Assembly: GCA_020444175.1 (NCBI GenBank)
Contig: JAHLLM010000009.1
Span: 62,001-126,000, forward strand
DNA: 64,000 nucleotides
Source: Desulfobulbaceae bacterium
Lineage (GTDB): Bacteria > Desulfobacterota > Desulfobulbia > Desulfobulbales > SURF-16
Direction of reading: 5' to 3'
Part shown: piece after piece, positions 43,033 through 50,743 of the stretch
How the letters are laid out: the number at the start of each line of letters is the position of its first letter
How positions within the stretch are numbered: position 1 is the first letter of the stretch
The notes under the pieces: generated by a model
Seen by the model: only the letters and a program-made list of their open reading frames with translations
The model's database searches: none
What the model was told of the DNA's origin: nothing
Translations under genes and position numbers: made by a program

Positions 43033-44658
43033 ATGGCGATTCCAAAAGCAGAAGAATTAGGTGTAAATGTCGCAAGGGAGCCATCCCTGATGACCGGAGC
43101 CATCCCCAAGAAGGAATGGATGGACAATCCGGTTGAATTCAAGGAGGGCAACTTTTGTTACCCGGCCAAGCAGTCAATAGTCGAATACCATAAGTTCCCA
43201 AACCCAAGGGAATGGAGCCCGACGGATGATGACTGGAAGCTGCCTGACGGCTGGGAAGATATAATTTTAAATGGCTTGAAAGAGCGGCTGGATAAATTCC
43301 GCTCCCTCAAAGTCTTCATGGATATCTGTGTACGTTGTGGTGCCTGTGCTGATAAATGCCACTTCTTTCTGGGCACAGGTGATCCGAAGAATATGCCTGT
43401 ACTGAGGGCTGAACTCCTTCGCTCAGTTTATCGTAATGATTTCACCACAGCCGGTAAACTTCTCGGCAAACTGGCAGGCGGACGGCCCATGACCGTCGCT
43501 GTTTTAAAAGAATGGTTCATGTACTCTTACCAGTGTACGGAATGCCGCCGCTGTTCAGTTTTTTGTCCATACGGTATTGATACGGCTGAAGTGACGATAA
43601 TTTTGCGGGAACTGCTGCATCTTGTCGGTGTAGGCACGAACTGGATTCTGGAACCTGCAGCTAATTCAAACAGAACCGGTAACCACATGGGTCTGCAGCC
43701 CCATACCCTGAAGGACAATGCCGGTTATCTCATGGATGATATCGAGGACATTACCGGCATTCGTATTAACCCGAGCTGGAACCGCAAGGGCGCCGAGGTT
43801 CTCTTCATCACCCCCTCGGCCGATGTTTTTGCCGAGCCGGGCATCTACACTTTTATGGGCTATATGCTCCTGTTCGAGCATATAGGCTTGGACTACACGT
43901 TGAGCACATATGCCTCTGAGGGTGGAAACTTCGGTCTTTTCACCAATAATGAGCTGATGAAAAAACTGAACGCCAAGATGTACGCTGAGGCTAAGAGGCT
44001 TGGAGTGAAATGGATTCTTGGCGGTGAATGCGGACATATGTGGCGCGTTCTCCACCAGTACATGGACACCATGAACGGTCCGGCAGACTTCCTTGAAGTT
44101 CCCAAGTCACCTATTACCAACACCGTCTTTGAAAATGCAGCGTCGACCAAGATGGTTCATATAAGTGAGTTCACCGCTGACCTGATCAAAAACAATAAAT
44201 TAAAACTTGATCCAATGCGTAATGCTCATCGCACACCGACCTGGCATGATTCCTGTAATCCTGCACGCGCCATGGGGCTTCTTGATGAACCACGCTATAT
44301 TCTCGATCATGTTGTCCCTAAATGGTATGAAATGCCAGAAAACACCATTCGTGAAAAAACTTTCTGCTGCGGTAGTGGTACTGGCCTCAATACCGGTGAG
44401 ATCATGGAACTGAGAATGCGTTCCGGTCTTCCCAGGGCAAATGCAGTTAAACATGTGGAAGAAAAATTCGGTGTCAATACATTGTCTTGTGTATGCGCCA
44501 TCGACAGGGCCACACTGACGGCACTGGTTGACTACTGGACACCGAATGTAAGTGTGACTGGGTTATCTGAACTGGTAGGTAACGCATTAATCATGGACGG
44601 CGAAAAAGAGAGAGAAACGGATCTCCGTTTTGCACCTCTTGAAGGAATGGAGGGGTAA
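43033..44658 (+). CDS. dsrK: DsrK, HdrD-like iron-sulfur subunit of the DsrMKJOP complex
   Basis: 541 residues. Two [4Fe-4S] motifs are CVRCGACADKCHF and CTECRRCSVFCPYG. The C-terminal half has the CCG-type cysteines (HDSCNPAR, FCCGSGTG) that bind the special cluster of heterodisulfide reductase-like enzymes. DsrK is thought to reduce the DsrC trisulfide/disulfide in the cytoplasm with electrons from DsrM. It is full length and tightly spaced to dsrM and dsrJ. Confidence 0.97.
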   Translation: MAIPKAEELGVNVAREPSLMTGAIPKKEWMDNPVEFKEGNFCYPAKQSIVEYHKFPNPREWSPTDDDWKLPDGWEDIILNGLKERLDKFRSLKVFMDICVRCGACADKCHFFLGTGDPKNMPVLRAELLRSVYRNDFTTAGKLLGKLAGGRPMTVAVLKEWFMYSYQCTECRRCSVFCPYGIDTAEVTIILRELLHLVGVGTNWILEPAANSNRTGNHMGLQPHTLKDNAGYLMDDIEDITGIRINPSWNRKGAEVLFITPSADVFAEPGIYTFMGYMLLFEHIGLDYTLSTYASEGGNFGLFTNNELMKKLNAKMYAEAKRLGVKWILGGECGHMWRVLHQYMDTMNGPADFLEVPKSPITNTVFENAASTKMVHISEFTADLIKNNKLKLDPMRNAHRTPTWHDSCNPARAMGLLDEPRYILDHVVPKWYEMPENTIREKTFCCGSGTGLNTGEIMELRMRSGLPRANAVKHVEEKFGVNTLSCVCAIDRATLTALVDYWTPNVSVTGLSELVGNALIMDGEKERETDLRFAPLEGMEG

Positions 44659-44659
44659 T

Positions 44660-45055
44660 ATGTACGATAAAGGGAAAATAGTACCCGGCCTGATAATTTT
44701 CGTTGGTCTCATGCTTTTTGCGATTTTTAACAACGCCGGGCAAAAACCGCAGCCGCCAAAACTGGAAAAACCAGAAGGCTATAAAGAGTGTGTTCTTCCT
44801 GTTGAGGAGATGAAACAATCACACATGGTTCTTCTCAATGAGTGGCGGGATGAAGTCATTCGTGAAGGTAAAAGAGAACAGGTAAAAGTTGGCGGCAAAA
44901 TGTTTGACAAGAGCCTGCAAAGAGGCTGTATGCATTGCCATACTAGCAAGAAGAAATTTTGTGATGTCTGTCACGAGTTTGCTTCTGTATATCCATACTG
45001 TTGGGATTGCCACATTGCGCCCCAGAGAGATATGGCAGATCAGGAGGCGAAATAA
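44660..45055 (+). CDS. dsrJ: DsrJ, periplasmic triheme cytochrome c
   Basis: 131 residues from the ATG at 44660 (AGGGG 6 bp upstream). A single N-terminal membrane anchor (~8-24) precedes a periplasmic domain with three CxxCH heme sites: CMHCH, CDVCH and CWDCH. This is the expected three-heme DsrJ, which mediates electron flow on the periplasmic side. The start is one base after the dsrK stop and the stop shares its last A with the dsrO start codon. Confidence 0.96.
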   Translation: MYDKGKIVPGLIIFVGLMLFAIFNNAGQKPQPPKLEKPEGYKECVLPVEEMKQSHMVLLNEWRDEVIREGKREQVKVGGKMFDKSLQRGCMHCHTSKKKFCDVCHEFASVYPYCWDCHIAPQRDMADQEAK

Positions 45056-45903
45056 TGGATAATTCAAGAAGAAAATTTCTAAAAATTGCTGGTATATCAG
45101 CTGTTGCAACAGTAGGGGCTCCTGCTGCCCTTAACTTGCTCACGGGTAATGCCCATGCCTCTTCCGGACATGGCGCTCCCCAGGCAGCAGCTCCTGCGGC
45201 ACACGGTGCTCCTGCCGCACATGGCGAAGCACCCACCGGGAAACGTTACGGCATGGTCATAGATGCCAGAAAATTCCACGCAAATCCCGGTCTTGCCGAA
45301 AAATGTATCGAGGCATGCCACACCAACTACAACGTGCCAGATTTCGGCAACAAGAAAGATGAAATCAAATGGCTCTGGAAAATGCCTTTTGCCAATGCCT
45401 TTCCAGAGCATAGCCATTACAAGAAGGACCACACGGTTCACAGCATGGACTTTCTTGTTACCTGTAATCACTGTGACAAACCTCCCTGTGTGCGGGCATG
45501 TCCGACCAAGGCTACCTTTAAAAACAAAGACGGCATTGTTATGATGGACTTTCATCGCTGCATTGGCTGTCGTTTCTGTATGGCTGCCTGCCCGTATGGA
45601 GCCAGGAGTTTCAACTGGCGTGATCCAAGAGGCTCTGAAAACGGTGTTCCTTTCATTAAGAAGCTGAACCATGATTTCCCGACCAGAATGCGCGGTGTTG
45701 TTGAAAAATGCAGCTTCTGTGCTTTACGGCTTGCTGAAGGCAAATTGCCACTCTGCGTCGAGGCAACGGGTGACACAGGGGCAATGTTTTTCGGTGACTT
45801 GAACGATCCGCACTCAGATGTTTCCAAGGTGTTGCAAAGCAAGTTCACCATTCAACGTAAACCAGCTTTGGGCACCACGCCCTCAGTGTTTTATATAATA
45901 TAA
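45055..45903 (+). CDS. dsrO: DsrO, periplasmic ferredoxin-like subunit with Tat signal
   Basis: 282 residues. The start is the ATG at 45055, which overlaps the dsrJ stop; a longer frame would run through dsrJ. The N terminus NSRRKFLKIAGISA is a twin-arginine export signal, followed by an Ala/His-rich linker. Iron-sulfur motifs are CNHCDKPPCVRACP, CIGCRFCMAACPYGARS and CSFCALRL...LCVEA, as in NrfC/HybA-like proteins. It links the DsrJ hemes to the membrane subunit DsrP. Confidence 0.96.
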   Translation: MDNSRRKFLKIAGISAVATVGAPAALNLLTGNAHASSGHGAPQAAAPAAHGAPAAHGEAPTGKRYGMVIDARKFHANPGLAEKCIEACHTNYNVPDFGNKKDEIKWLWKMPFANAFPEHSHYKKDHTVHSMDFLVTCNHCDKPPCVRACPTKATFKNKDGIVMMDFHRCIGCRFCMAACPYGARSFNWRDPRGSENGVPFIKKLNHDFPTRMRGVVEKCSFCALRLAEGKLPLCVEATGDTGAMFFGDLNDPHSDVSKVLQSKFTIQRKPALGTTPSVFYII

Positions 45904-45914
45904 GGTGATACATT

Positions 45915-47096
45915 ATGTTAGAAAAAGCGCTCAAAGGTAATGTTGGGTACTGGGCATGGATTCTGTGCCTGCTCGGTATCATGGGGGTGGGTGTCATCTG
46001 CTACGCTGTCCAGTTTAACTACGGTCTTGGTGCCACAGGCATGAGCCGTGACGTGACCTGGGGAATTTACATCTCCCAGTTTACTTTTCTGGTCGGTGTC
46101 GCTGCCGGTGGTTTGATGCTTGTACTCCCTTACTATCTTCATCATTATAAAGATTTCGGAAGAATCACCATTCTTGGTGAGTTTATGGCAATTGCCGCAG
46201 TTGCCATGTGTCTGCTCTTCATTATGGCTGACCTTGGACAGCCAATGAGAGCCTTAAACGTTGTTTTTCATCCCACCCCAAACTCCATGCTCTTTTATGA
46301 CATGATCGTTCTGAACGGCTACCTCTTTCTGAACGTTGTGTGCGGTTGGGTTGTACTCCATTCCGAGTACAAGGGGATCAAGTATCCAAACTGGGTAAAA
46401 CCCCTTATTTATCTTTCCATCCCCTGGGCTGTTAGTATCCATACAGTAACAGCGTTTCTGTACTGTGGTCTTCCCGGACGTCATTTCTGGCTGACCGCTA
46501 TACTGGCACCACGCTTTCTGGCTTCAGCTTTTGCAGCTGGACCTGCTCTCCTCATGGTTATTGCTCTTATCATGAAGCAGACCACGAAATTTAACGTAGG
46601 ACGCGTGGCTCAGGACAAACTTGTAACCATTATCGGCTATGCAGCCATACTCAATTTCTTTTTCCTGGGCTGTGAGATTTTTGTTGCCTACTACAGCCAG
46701 ATACCTGGACATATGCATACCCTTGACTATCTCTTTTTCGGTCTTACTGATCATGCAACCGGCGAAGTGTATAACAACCTGGTACCTTTCATGCGTGCCT
46801 CTGTTATTATGGGGTTTGCAGGTATCGCTCTCCTCTTTTTCTCCCGGTCCCAGAAATCTGATAGTATGCTGGCCATTTCCTGCATTCTCATCTTTGTCTC
46901 TTTCTGGATTGACAAGGGCCTTGGACTCGTTCTTGGCGGCTTCGTGCCAAACGGTATGGAGCAGATCACTGAATACATCCCAACAGGAATTGAGATAGGC
47001 GTAACCGCCGGCATCTGGGCAACTGGATTTTTCATCATTACAGTGCTTTACAAAATCGCAATCTCTGTAAAGCTGGAAAATGAAAAAACAGCCTAG
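45915..47096 (+). CDS. dsrP: DsrP, NrfD-like membrane subunit
   Basis: 393 residues with about ten membrane helices, matching the NrfD/PsrC family of quinone-interacting proteins without heme. Typical elements are GVAAGGLMLVLPYY near the second helix and LADLGQPMRALNVVFHPTPNSMLFYDM. It partners DsrO to exchange electrons with the menaquinone pool. It is the last gene of dsrMKJOP, 11 bp after dsrO, and is followed by a strong terminator. Confidence 0.96.
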   Translation: MLEKALKGNVGYWAWILCLLGIMGVGVICYAVQFNYGLGATGMSRDVTWGIYISQFTFLVGVAAGGLMLVLPYYLHHYKDFGRITILGEFMAIAAVAMCLLFIMADLGQPMRALNVVFHPTPNSMLFYDMIVLNGYLFLNVVCGWVVLHSEYKGIKYPNWVKPLIYLSIPWAVSIHTVTAFLYCGLPGRHFWLTAILAPRFLASAFAAGPALLMVIALIMKQTTKFNVGRVAQDKLVTIIGYAAILNFFFLGCEIFVAYYSQIPGHMHTLDYLFFGLTDHATGEVYNNLVPFMRASVIMGFAGIALLFFSRSQKSDSMLAISCILIFVSFWIDKGLGLVLGGFVPNGMEQITEYIPTGIEIGVTAGIWATGFFIITVLYKIAISVKLENEKTA

Positions 47097-47576: not shown

Positions 47577-47906
47577 ATGAAAATAACCATTGATAAAAAT
47601 GTTGTCGAGTTTGTCCCGGAGAACAACGAGGAAACATCTTCTCTTACTACGTTATGGCGCGTCATGGTCGACTGCATGAAGGACAATAAAAAGCTGGAGC
47701 CGATCGGTGAATATGTGCCTGAAAAAGAAAACTTGGCCCGTTTTGTCCTGGAAGGGATAAAAGGCGGCCGGACAGAATATGCCCATGACCAGCAGGCACC
47801 AGCTGCCGGCACCTATTATTGCGCTGTCTGCAATAAATATATGAATGTGAAAGCTGGCGCAGACTTACCGCTCTGTTGTGGTAGAATCATGGAAAACATG
47901 GATTAA
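47577..47906 (+). CDS. Desulforedoxin-like iron protein with an N-terminal extension
   Basis: 109 residues. The C-terminal ~33 residues read [30 protein letters not shown], the CxxC...CC arrangement of desulforedoxin-type Fe(Cys)4 sites as found in desulforedoxin and desulfoferrodoxin N-terminal domains. The N-terminal ~75 residues ([20 protein letters not shown]...) form an acidic domain I do not recognise. There is no superoxide reductase domain. It is 21 bp after the regulator gene and 20 bp before rubredoxin, with a GGTGGGG ribosome-like element. Confidence 0.75.
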
Positions 47907-48412: not shown

Positions 48413-50743
48413 ATGGTCAAAAATATCCTGGACTTAATCGGCAACACGAAAATTGTCCCGATAAATCGTCTGAATCCGCATAAAAACGTCACCATTTTCG
48501 CTAAGTTGGAAGCCAGTAATCCTGGGGGATCGGTAAAAGACCGTATCGCTTTGTCAATGATCGAAGCGGCGGAAAAAAGTGGAGAACTCACCCCGGACAA
48601 AATAGTTCTTGAAGCAACGAGCGGCAACACCGGCATCGGACTGGCCATGGTCTGTGCCGTGAAGGGCTATCGCTGCCAGCTCGTAATGGCAGAGACGGCC
48701 AGTATTGAACGCCGCAAGATAATGACCGCCTTTGGTGCAGAAATCCTCTTAACTCCGGGGAAACGCAGCACAGATGGCGCAATTGAGCAGGCTTATATCA
48801 TGGCAAGGGAGCATCCGGACAAATATTTTCTCACTGACCAGTTTAATAATGAGGCAAACTGGAGGGCACACGTTGAAACAACCGGCCCGGAGATATGGAA
48901 GCAGACCGACGGCAAGGTTACTGACGTGGTGGCTACCCTTGGTACAACCGGAACAGTAATGGGCCTCTGTCGTTATTTTGCCGAGAATCACCCCGAAGTG
49001 CGTGTTACTGCAGTGGAACCCTTTCTCGGCCATAAAATCCAGGGACTCAAAAACATGAAGGAGTCCTACAAACCTGGAATTTTCAACAAAACCGAACCGT
49101 ACCAGATCTTCAATATCCCGGACGAGGAAGCCTTTCGCCATGCCCGTCTCCTGGCTCGCAAGGAAGGTATTTTCGCAGGCATGAGTTCCGGGGCGGCAAT
49201 TTGCGCAGCCCTTGCCAGGGCTGAACAACTTGATGAGGGCATTATTGTCGTGCTTTTCCCTGATAGTGGAGAAAAATATCTGAGTACGCAGCTCTTCACC
49301 CGCAAAAAACCGGAAAAACCCCAAAAAACAGGGCTCCGTTTTTTTAATTCCCTGAAACGCAAAAAAGAGGTTTTCCAGCCGATTTCTCCGGATAAAGTAA
49401 CTTTTTACGCCTGCGGCCCTACTGCCCATGAGATTGCCAACCTCGGTCATTGCCGCCGCTTTATCGTGGCGGATCTGATCCATCGCCTTCTGCTCTACAA
49501 TGGCTATAATGTTGCATTCTACATGAACTTCACAGACCTCGATGACAACACCATTGAAGGTGCGGCCGGCAAAGGACAGTCCCTGCAGGAGTTCACCGGG
49601 TATTATATTGACGAATTTATGAAGGATATCGAGGCCCTTGGCGTAAAACAGGCGACCTGCTATCCCCGGGCCTCGGAGCATGTCACAGACATGATCAACA
49701 TAGCCCACGAGCTTGTACACAAAGGATATGCCTATGAAAAACACGGCTCTGTCTACTTCGATATCGCAAAATTCAAGGATTATGGCAAACTTTCCAGGAT
49801 TGATCTGGAGAAAATAGATATAGGACGGACTGTTGATCTTGATAATTACGAGAAACACAGCCCCCTTGATTTCACCCTGATGAAACGCTCGACCCTGGCA
49901 GAGCTGAAAAGCGGTGTTTTTTATCAAACCGACCGAGGCAATATGCGGCCAGGATGGCACATTGAATGTGCGGCCATGTCCCTGCATTATCTCGGCGCAA
50001 CTATGGATATCCATACCAGCGGGCGCGACCTCATCTTTCCGCACCATGAAAACGAAAATGCCATTGCCGAGAGCATGACCGGCAAGCCCCTTGCCAACAT
50101 CTGGATGCACAGCGAACTGCTGCTCGTTGACGGCAAAAAAATGAGCCAGGATAACAAAAACGTCATCACCCTGCGGCAGGTCGTGGAAAAGGGTTACACC
50201 CCCAGAGAAGTCCGTTTTTTCCTTATCCGCAACCACTACCGCAAACCCATCAGTTTTTCTTATAAAAAGCTGGATGCAGCACGCATGAGCATCAGACGCC
50301 TGGATGAGTTCACCAGAAAATTACTCTGCCTGCCCCCCGATCTTCCCCATCCCCATGTGGCAACGTATCTGACGGAAATGGAAGAATCCTTTCAGGCTGC
50401 CATGGAAGACGACATGAATGTCTCCAAGGCCATTGGCTCGCTCTTTGATTTCACCAAAAAAGTGAACCCTATTCTCAGCCAGGGCCAGCTGGATCGCGAC
50501 CAGAAAAAATACATCATCGAATCCCTGGAGAAAATAAACACGGTTTTGGGTATTCTCAGGCTTGAGGAATGTCCTCTGGCTCCTGAAATTGACAAGCTTA
50601 TCCAGGAGCGGGCGCAGGCCAGAAAACAAAAGGACTGGGAAAAAGCCGACGTTGTCAGAAAAGAGTTGGCCCAGAAAGGCATCACCGTCATCGATACCGC
50701 CAAGGGAACATTCTGGAAAGAAACGGATAAATCAAAAAAATAA
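48413..50743 (+). CDS. cysK-cysS: Cysteine synthase fused to a cysteinyl-tRNA synthetase-like enzyme
   Basis: 776 residues in one open frame. Residues ~1-298 are a complete PLP-dependent cysteine synthase: Lys42 in NPGGSVKDRIA, TSGNTGIGL (69-77), GTTGTVMG and PDSGEKYLST. After a basic linker (~298-322), residues ~325-770 follow cysteinyl-tRNA synthetase: YACGPT (Cys334), the HIGH-equivalent NLGH (343-346), zinc ligands Cys519, His544 and Glu548 (FPHHENE), the KMSKS-equivalent KMSQD (576-580), and the C-terminal ARKQKDWEKADVVRKEL helix. The first half makes cysteine from O-acetylserine and sulfide; the second would activate cysteine with ATP. The changed HIGH and KMSKS leave open whether tRNA is still the acceptor. 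Confidence 0.93.
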   Translation: MVKNILDLIGNTKIVPINRLNPHKNVTIFAKLEASNPGGSVKDRIALSMIEAAEKSGELTPDKIVLEATSGNTGIGLAMVCAVKGYRCQLVMAETASIERRKIMTAFGAEILLTPGKRSTDGAIEQAYIMAREHPDKYFLTDQFNNEANWRAHVETTGPEIWKQTDGKVTDVVATLGTTGTVMGLCRYFAENHPEVRVTAVEPFLGHKIQGLKNMKESYKPGIFNKTEPYQIFNIPDEEAFRHARLLARKEGIFAGMSSGAAICAALARAEQLDEGIIVVLFPDSGEKYLSTQLFTRKKPEKPQKTGLRFFNSLKRKKEVFQPISPDKVTFYACGPTAHEIANLGHCRRFIVADLIHRLLLYNGYNVAFYMNFTDLDDNTIEGAAGKGQSLQEFTGYYIDEFMKDIEALGVKQATCYPRASEHVTDMINIAHELVHKGYAYEKHGSVYFDIAKFKDYGKLSRIDLEKIDIGRTVDLDNYEKHSPLDFTLMKRSTLAELKSGVFYQTDRGNMRPGWHIECAAMSLHYLGATMDIHTSGRDLIFPHHENENAIAESMTGKPLANIWMHSELLLVDGKKMSQDNKNVITLRQVVEKGYTPREVRFFLIRNHYRKPISFSYKKLDAARMSIRRLDEFTRKLLCLPPDLPHPHVATYLTEMEESFQAAMEDDMNVSKAIGSLFDFTKKVNPILSQGQLDRDQKKYIIESLEKINTVLGILRLEECPLAPEIDKLIQERAQARKQKDWEKADVVRKELAQKGITVIDTAKGTFWKETDKSKK

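Follow-up and report, generated by a model that had tools for sequence, protein, structure and literature searches.

We discovered that one uninterrupted reading frame in the window (the whole 64 000-nt stretch of Desulfobulbaceae DNA analysed here) fuses a cysteine synthase to a full-length CysRS-like protein which has degenerate catalytic motifs and keeps the residues that read the anticodon of tRNA-Cys. Judged from the residue patterns of the family, it is quite probable that most members, the window's protein included, have lost adenylation and at the same time retained tRNA-Cys binding, and their role is most likely that of a charging sensor or of a tRNA scaffold. The reading we favour, if tentatively, is that of a working cysteine synthase joined to a tRNA-Cys-binding pseudo-synthetase which would be used in supply–demand control. 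If true, this would be a new way of matching amino-acid supply to translation, in which a tRNA itself acts on a metabolic enzyme.

The frame (776 aa; 48413..50743, + strand, as are all features given below) was found exactly as the earlier note on this DNA had described it, and the residues named there (Lys42, TSGNTG, C334/C519/H544/E548, NLGH at 343–346 and KMSQD at 576–580) all lie at the named places. Pfam identifies PALP (residues 6–284), tRNA-synt_1e (321–623), DALR_2 (660–715) and the CysS_C anticodon domain (722–768). The cysteine synthase half, of the CysK/CysM type, covers residues 3–296 (48419..49300), followed by a linker predicted to be flexible (residues 294–305; 49292..49327; pLDDT <50) and by the CysRS-like half with the full CysRS fold (residues 308–770; 49334..50722). 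In Foldseek searches the best match of the latter is 1u0b_B, a CysRS bound to tRNA-Cys (TMt 0.85), and that of the other half is CysM; a structure match also bore out the remark that MshC shares the CysRS fold. The AlphaFold2 model (mean pLDDT 89.8, pTM 0.59) gives no support for a fixed interface or tunnel between the two halves, and a channel joining the two active sites was rejected on this ground. As the model fixes no arrangement of the halves around the floppy linker, an allosteric route is not visible in it. The 776-codon fusion is confirmed as real: a frameshift or assembly artefact is ruled out because the intact fusion recurs at >200 loci, among them loci of single-contig genomes and of Desulfopila aestuarii DSM 18488. 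One isolated broken copy, with a frameshift near residue 595, was seen in an otherwise complete, single-contig genome (L206 in G031).

Within the synthase half, the PLP lysine K42 (48536..48538) is 100% conserved in the alignment of fusions, and the residues of the TSGNTG alpha-carboxylate loop (48617..48634), together with Q143, are kept at 87–100% per position. K42, S70-G-N72-T-G, Q143, the phosphate loop GT[TS]GT and the PLP serine S258 are essentially invariant across >200 fusions, and this half is, apparently, a working cysteine synthase. The E. coli CysK row of the alignment served for numbering only. In OASS the TSGNTG loop binds the free alpha-carboxylate of the substrate and, as the loop is kept, a tRNA-esterified substrate is unlikely. 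Among the NCBIfam models, the fusion passes TIGR01136 cysKM (357.2 bits, cut-off 344.15) and scores below the cut-offs of the cysK and cysM equivalog models. It shares its N-terminal half and the catalytic residues with CysM/CysK (2bhs, 2q3b), but differs from them by its fused partner and by family-specific, near-invariant positions (A68, T120-D121, D142 and K213-N214). The genome also has a gene resembling that of serine acetyltransferase, with a model score below the cut-off.

The CysRS-like half passes the NCBIfam model TIGR00435 cysS (417.7, cut-off 340), so that automatic annotation is likely to call such fusions functional synthetases. Nevertheless, three of its motifs are degenerate: HIGH reads NLGH (residues 343–346; 49439..49450), the ATP-site motif GGxD reads S536-G-R-D539 (50018..50029) and the KMSKS loop reads KMSQD (residues 576–580; 50138..50152). 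The earlier note had recognised the altered HIGH and KMSKS motifs, but missed both the altered GGxD and the kept anticodon readers. The zinc ligands C334 (E. coli C28; 49412..49414), C519 (E. coli C209; 49967..49969) and H544 and E548 (50042..50056) are present in the window's protein. The motif census rests on an alignment of 203 near-full fusions, 31 canonical CysRSs and the E. coli CysRS. An intact KMSKS occurs in 0/203 fusions, HxGH in 2/203 (both without KMSKS) and GGxD in 3/203; all four zinc ligands are kept in 136/203, and C28/C209/H234 together in 172/203. The canonical CysRSs, in contrast, keep HIGH, GGxD, KMSKS, the zinc ligands and the anticodon residues in 30–31 of 31. The motif changes are a family-wide trait and not peculiar to the window's genome. 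Nine fusions keep HLGN (HxGN) with KMSRS (among them L222, L227, L231, L233, L238 and L239; L238 also has GGxD). By their motifs this minority may still adenylate or keep some activity, and it suggests a gradual loss of the catalytic motifs; class I motif loss as such leaves room for residual activity.

The old catalytic region has, however, not simply decayed. Directly after HIGH, R348-R349 (49454..49459) is 100% invariant in the fusions, whereas canonical CysRSs mostly have RS or RC at this place. Several positions are invariant in the fusions and different in canonical CysRS (P336, R349, S446, Y479, R492, K499 and G501; in E. coli numbering the newly invariant ones include P30, R43, S141 and R186), and W515, H516 and F542-P543-H544 are kept. 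From such strict new invariants we conclude that the former catalytic pocket was remodelled under selection. As a guess, its ligand may be the tRNA 3' end.

The anticodon-binding domain (PF23493, residues 722–768; 50576..50716) carries R733, R737, W742, D746, R749 and D761, which are equivalent to R423, R427, W432, D436, R439 and D451 of E. coli CysRS. In the E. coli CysRS–tRNA-Cys complex, R423, R427, W432 and D436 contact G34, according to PMC12684709, citing Hauenstein et al. 2004. This set (R423, R/K427, an aromatic residue at 432 and D436) is kept in 203/203 fusions, in 140/140 after thinning to 80% identity, and in 31/31 of those fusions that lost the zinc set. Its retention is not a matter of general rigidity, because the remainder of the C-terminal domain varies freely (45% mean identity). 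Some of the conserved residues there (R439, D451 and parts of R423/D436) may be structural. Of the positions with an invariant residue in canonical CysRS, the fusions retain 6/8 in the C-terminal domain but, in the two catalytic stretches, only 17/67 (Fisher p 0.009). Likewise, the pairwise identity of canonical CysRS in 30 genomes is 65% for the core and 52% for the C-terminal domain, and in the CysRS half of the fusions from the same 30 genomes it is 43% and 45%, i.e. the order of conservation is reversed in the fusion.

Searching the genome for a separate cysS and cysK, as had been proposed, brought up both: it encodes three CysRS-like genes, namely a canonical 488-aa CysRS (contig 26), the fusion and a third paralog (contig 33), as well as a stand-alone CysK and one tRNA-Cys(GCA) (pattern search and ARAGORN). 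Both halves of the fusion thus have a stand-alone counterpart in the genome, and the fusion as the only CysRS of the cell is rejected; its CysRS half is ~38% identical to the genome's own canonical CysRS. A canonical CysRS coexists with the fusion in nearly all genomes checked, and a search for CysRS domains in 40 fusion genomes found a separate CysRS in all the single-contig ones. None was found in four draft fusion genomes that are 84–95% complete (G018, G025, G036 and G045); for G036 and G045 gaps are the best explanation, because the canonical enzyme is present in two further members of the genus, of which one is 91% complete. The third paralog (L003:1177-2700, on contig 33 of G000; 507–521 aa) has HIGN, an intact KMSKS and a zinc set changed to C, D, H, S, is without the anticodon domain, and recalls CysRS* or an MshC-like ligase; no tRNA gene was found within the 16 kb around it.

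As a mechanism, we propose that uncharged tRNA-Cys would dock on the anticodon domain and on the remodelled former active site, that the docked tRNA would alter the output of the attached cysteine synthase, and that cysteine would thereby be made from the abundant sulfide of the cell in step with translation. Regulation of the synthase by the state of the tRNA, as opposed to a tRNA that just brings the synthase close to the canonical CysRS, is speculative. Somewhat more tentatively, a bacterial amino-acid biosynthetic enzyme may here be controlled directly by the charging of its own tRNA via a covalently fused, adenylation-dead synthetase of single fusion origin, kept across sulfidogenic Desulfobacterota. 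On a similarly cautious footing, the fusion might be viewed as a post-translational counterpart of T-box or attenuator logic.

The closest rival to a sensing role is a tRNA-Cys scaffold (a 'cysteinosome'), in which the dead half tethers the synthase to tRNA-Cys and fresh cysteine is released beside the canonical CysRS, with allosteric sensing playing no part. The conserved tRNA-binding residues and the presumably active synthase would fit it equally well, as would the predicted flexible linker, and PMC8762117 cites the transsulfursome and the transamidosome as precedents. However, a scaffold leaves the strict new invariants of the remodelled pocket unexplained, cysteine is free to diffuse, a stand-alone CysK is also encoded, and a single tRNA would need to be bound by both proteins; we regard it as unlikely. 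A sensor of free cysteine, strictly analogous to HisZ, would bind the amino acid in the old Zn/Trp pocket and feed back on the synthase, with the tRNA being irrelevant. W205, H206 and H234 (E. coli numbering), kept at 98–100%, and the 172 fusions with the C28/C209/H234 trio, speak for such a pocket, but the zinc set was lost in 31 fusions and the anticodon kit never, and a sensor of this kind would not need the G34 contacts, which makes it very unlikely.

The remaining alternatives ascribe chemistry to the CysRS-like half or to the tRNA. According to the earlier note, cysteine might be handed directly to adenylation by the C-terminal half. On this view the fusion would be an additional CysRS, active despite its altered motifs, which would adenylate the cysteine made by the adjoining synthase and load it onto tRNA-Cys, possibly at a low rate or in stressed cells. 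Its TIGR00435 score, the zinc site of the window's protein, the anticodon kit and the nine relatives with HxGN and KMSRS are in line with this. The idea is probably wrong, since the ATP motifs are lost family-wide and the G34 readers kept: HIGH, GGxD and KMSKS are jointly degenerate in almost all of the family and zinc ligands were lost repeatedly, while the canonical CysRS of the same genomes stays intact. We consider an active second CysRS quite unlikely. Alternatively, the synthase half could act on an aminoacyl group on tRNA-Cys, by SepCysS-like beta-replacement or in repair. The union of a PLP beta-replacement enzyme with a putative tRNA-Cys-binding module would suit this, and SepCysS itself is a precedent (PMC5424206 and PMC8762117), but with the binders of a free alpha-carboxylate so well kept, and an indirect route being unneeded where a canonical CysRS is present, such chemistry is highly improbable. 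Least probable of all is a cysteine persulfide synthase (CPERS/CARS-like) or an MshC-like thiol ligase. PMC10655014 reports CysSSH formation by CysRS with PLP, but the PLP lysines K73/K76/K266/K269 occur all four together in 0/203 fusions, being N, E, K and Q in the window's protein; this test is not strict, because only 13/31 canonical CysRSs have all four. The ligase, which would correspond to the low-molecular-weight thiol acceptor considered earlier, has the shared MshC fold in its favour; it is unlikely given a TIGR03447 score of 207.9 (cut-off 485.1) and the kept anticodon domain. MshC, CPERS and CysRS* identities are all disfavoured by family models or residues.

A 2022 review of synthetase paralogs (PMC9437257) lists for CysRS only CysRS* and MshC, and HisZ as an adenylation-free regulator. 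HisZ, a HisRS paralog without adenylation, is a regulatory subunit of ATP phosphoribosyltransferase and is thereby tied to histidine synthesis, a link to the amino acid which the fusion shares (PMC9437257). It is, however, of class II, acts as a separate subunit and mediates histidine inhibition, whereas the fusion is of class I, covalent, and conserves the tRNA anticodon contacts. Similar to the role proposed for the charging sensor, the HisRS-like domain of GCN2, also a pseudo-synthetase, responds to uncharged tRNA and controls the attached enzyme; unlike the fusion, GCN2 is a eukaryotic, non-biosynthetic kinase with a class II domain. The residue pattern of the fusions would be compatible with a module of the HisZ or GCN2 kind, i.e. 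adenylation lost and ligand binding retained. With canonical bacterial CysRS (E. coli 1u0b/1li5) the fusion shares the fold over the whole length, the anticodon domain and often the zinc site, but HIGH, GGxD and KMSKS are degenerate and it forms a separate clade (support 97). MshC has a CysRS-derived fold, as has the C-terminal half of the fusion, but keeps adenylation, and its sequence matches to the fusion end before the anticodon domain; the fusion family shows the reverse. CysRS* of Desulfobacterales (with SelC*/SelB*) is a non-canonical CysRS from the same phylum, but charges a tRNA without an anticodon-binding domain (PMC9437257), the opposite trade-off to that of the fusion. Compared with MshC and CysRS*, the fusion thus reverses the usual fate of CysRS paralogs: catalysis is discarded and tRNA recognition kept. 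The SepRS/SepCysE/SepCysS transsulfursome couples cysteine synthesis and tRNA-Cys like the fusion, but with unrelated enzymes and a reaction on the tRNA. We found no CysK–CysRS fusion in the open-access papers searched, an absence which is no proof of novelty, nor, under the search terms used, a CysK fusion in PMC8762117 and PMC5424206 on cysteine encoding.

A survey across the Desulfobacterota, another step that had been suggested, detected the fusion in 123/296 genomes and 44/96 families of a phylum-wide sample, and most of 58 near relatives carry it intact, usually alongside a canonical CysRS. The CysRS halves of the fusions lie on one side of a single branch relative to the canonical enzymes (support 97), and their distances correlate with those of canonical CysRS at r 0.79 and with those of the CysK half at r 0.74, a pattern that fits mostly vertical descent. 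The family is ancient in the phylum, and its inheritance has been mostly vertical. In this sample the fusion is strongly tied to dsrB, which is present in 108/123 fusion genomes (38/173 genomes without the fusion) and, by family, in 39/44 fusion families (11/52 others), with phylogeny accounted for only to the family level in these counts. The fusion is a mark of sulfidogenic Desulfobacterota, whose sulfide supply is ample and whose cysteine may have to be kept in check. One dsrB-positive family of the same order (f4; G024, G037, G046 and G054) lacks the fusion in 4/4 genomes. None of the plasmid records covers 80% of the query. In the window, the neighbouring sulfur genes noticed earlier are dsrK, dsrJ, dsrO and dsrP (43033..47096), upstream of the fusion. 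In 23 related loci the gene at −1 is a dsrP homologue, the neighbours in other lineages are unrelated, and no conserved operon partner was found outside the dsr neighbourhood of Desulfobulbales. Between dsrP and the fusion lies an ORF of 109 aa with CxxC pairs (47577–47906), which has no NCBIfam match at 1e-10.
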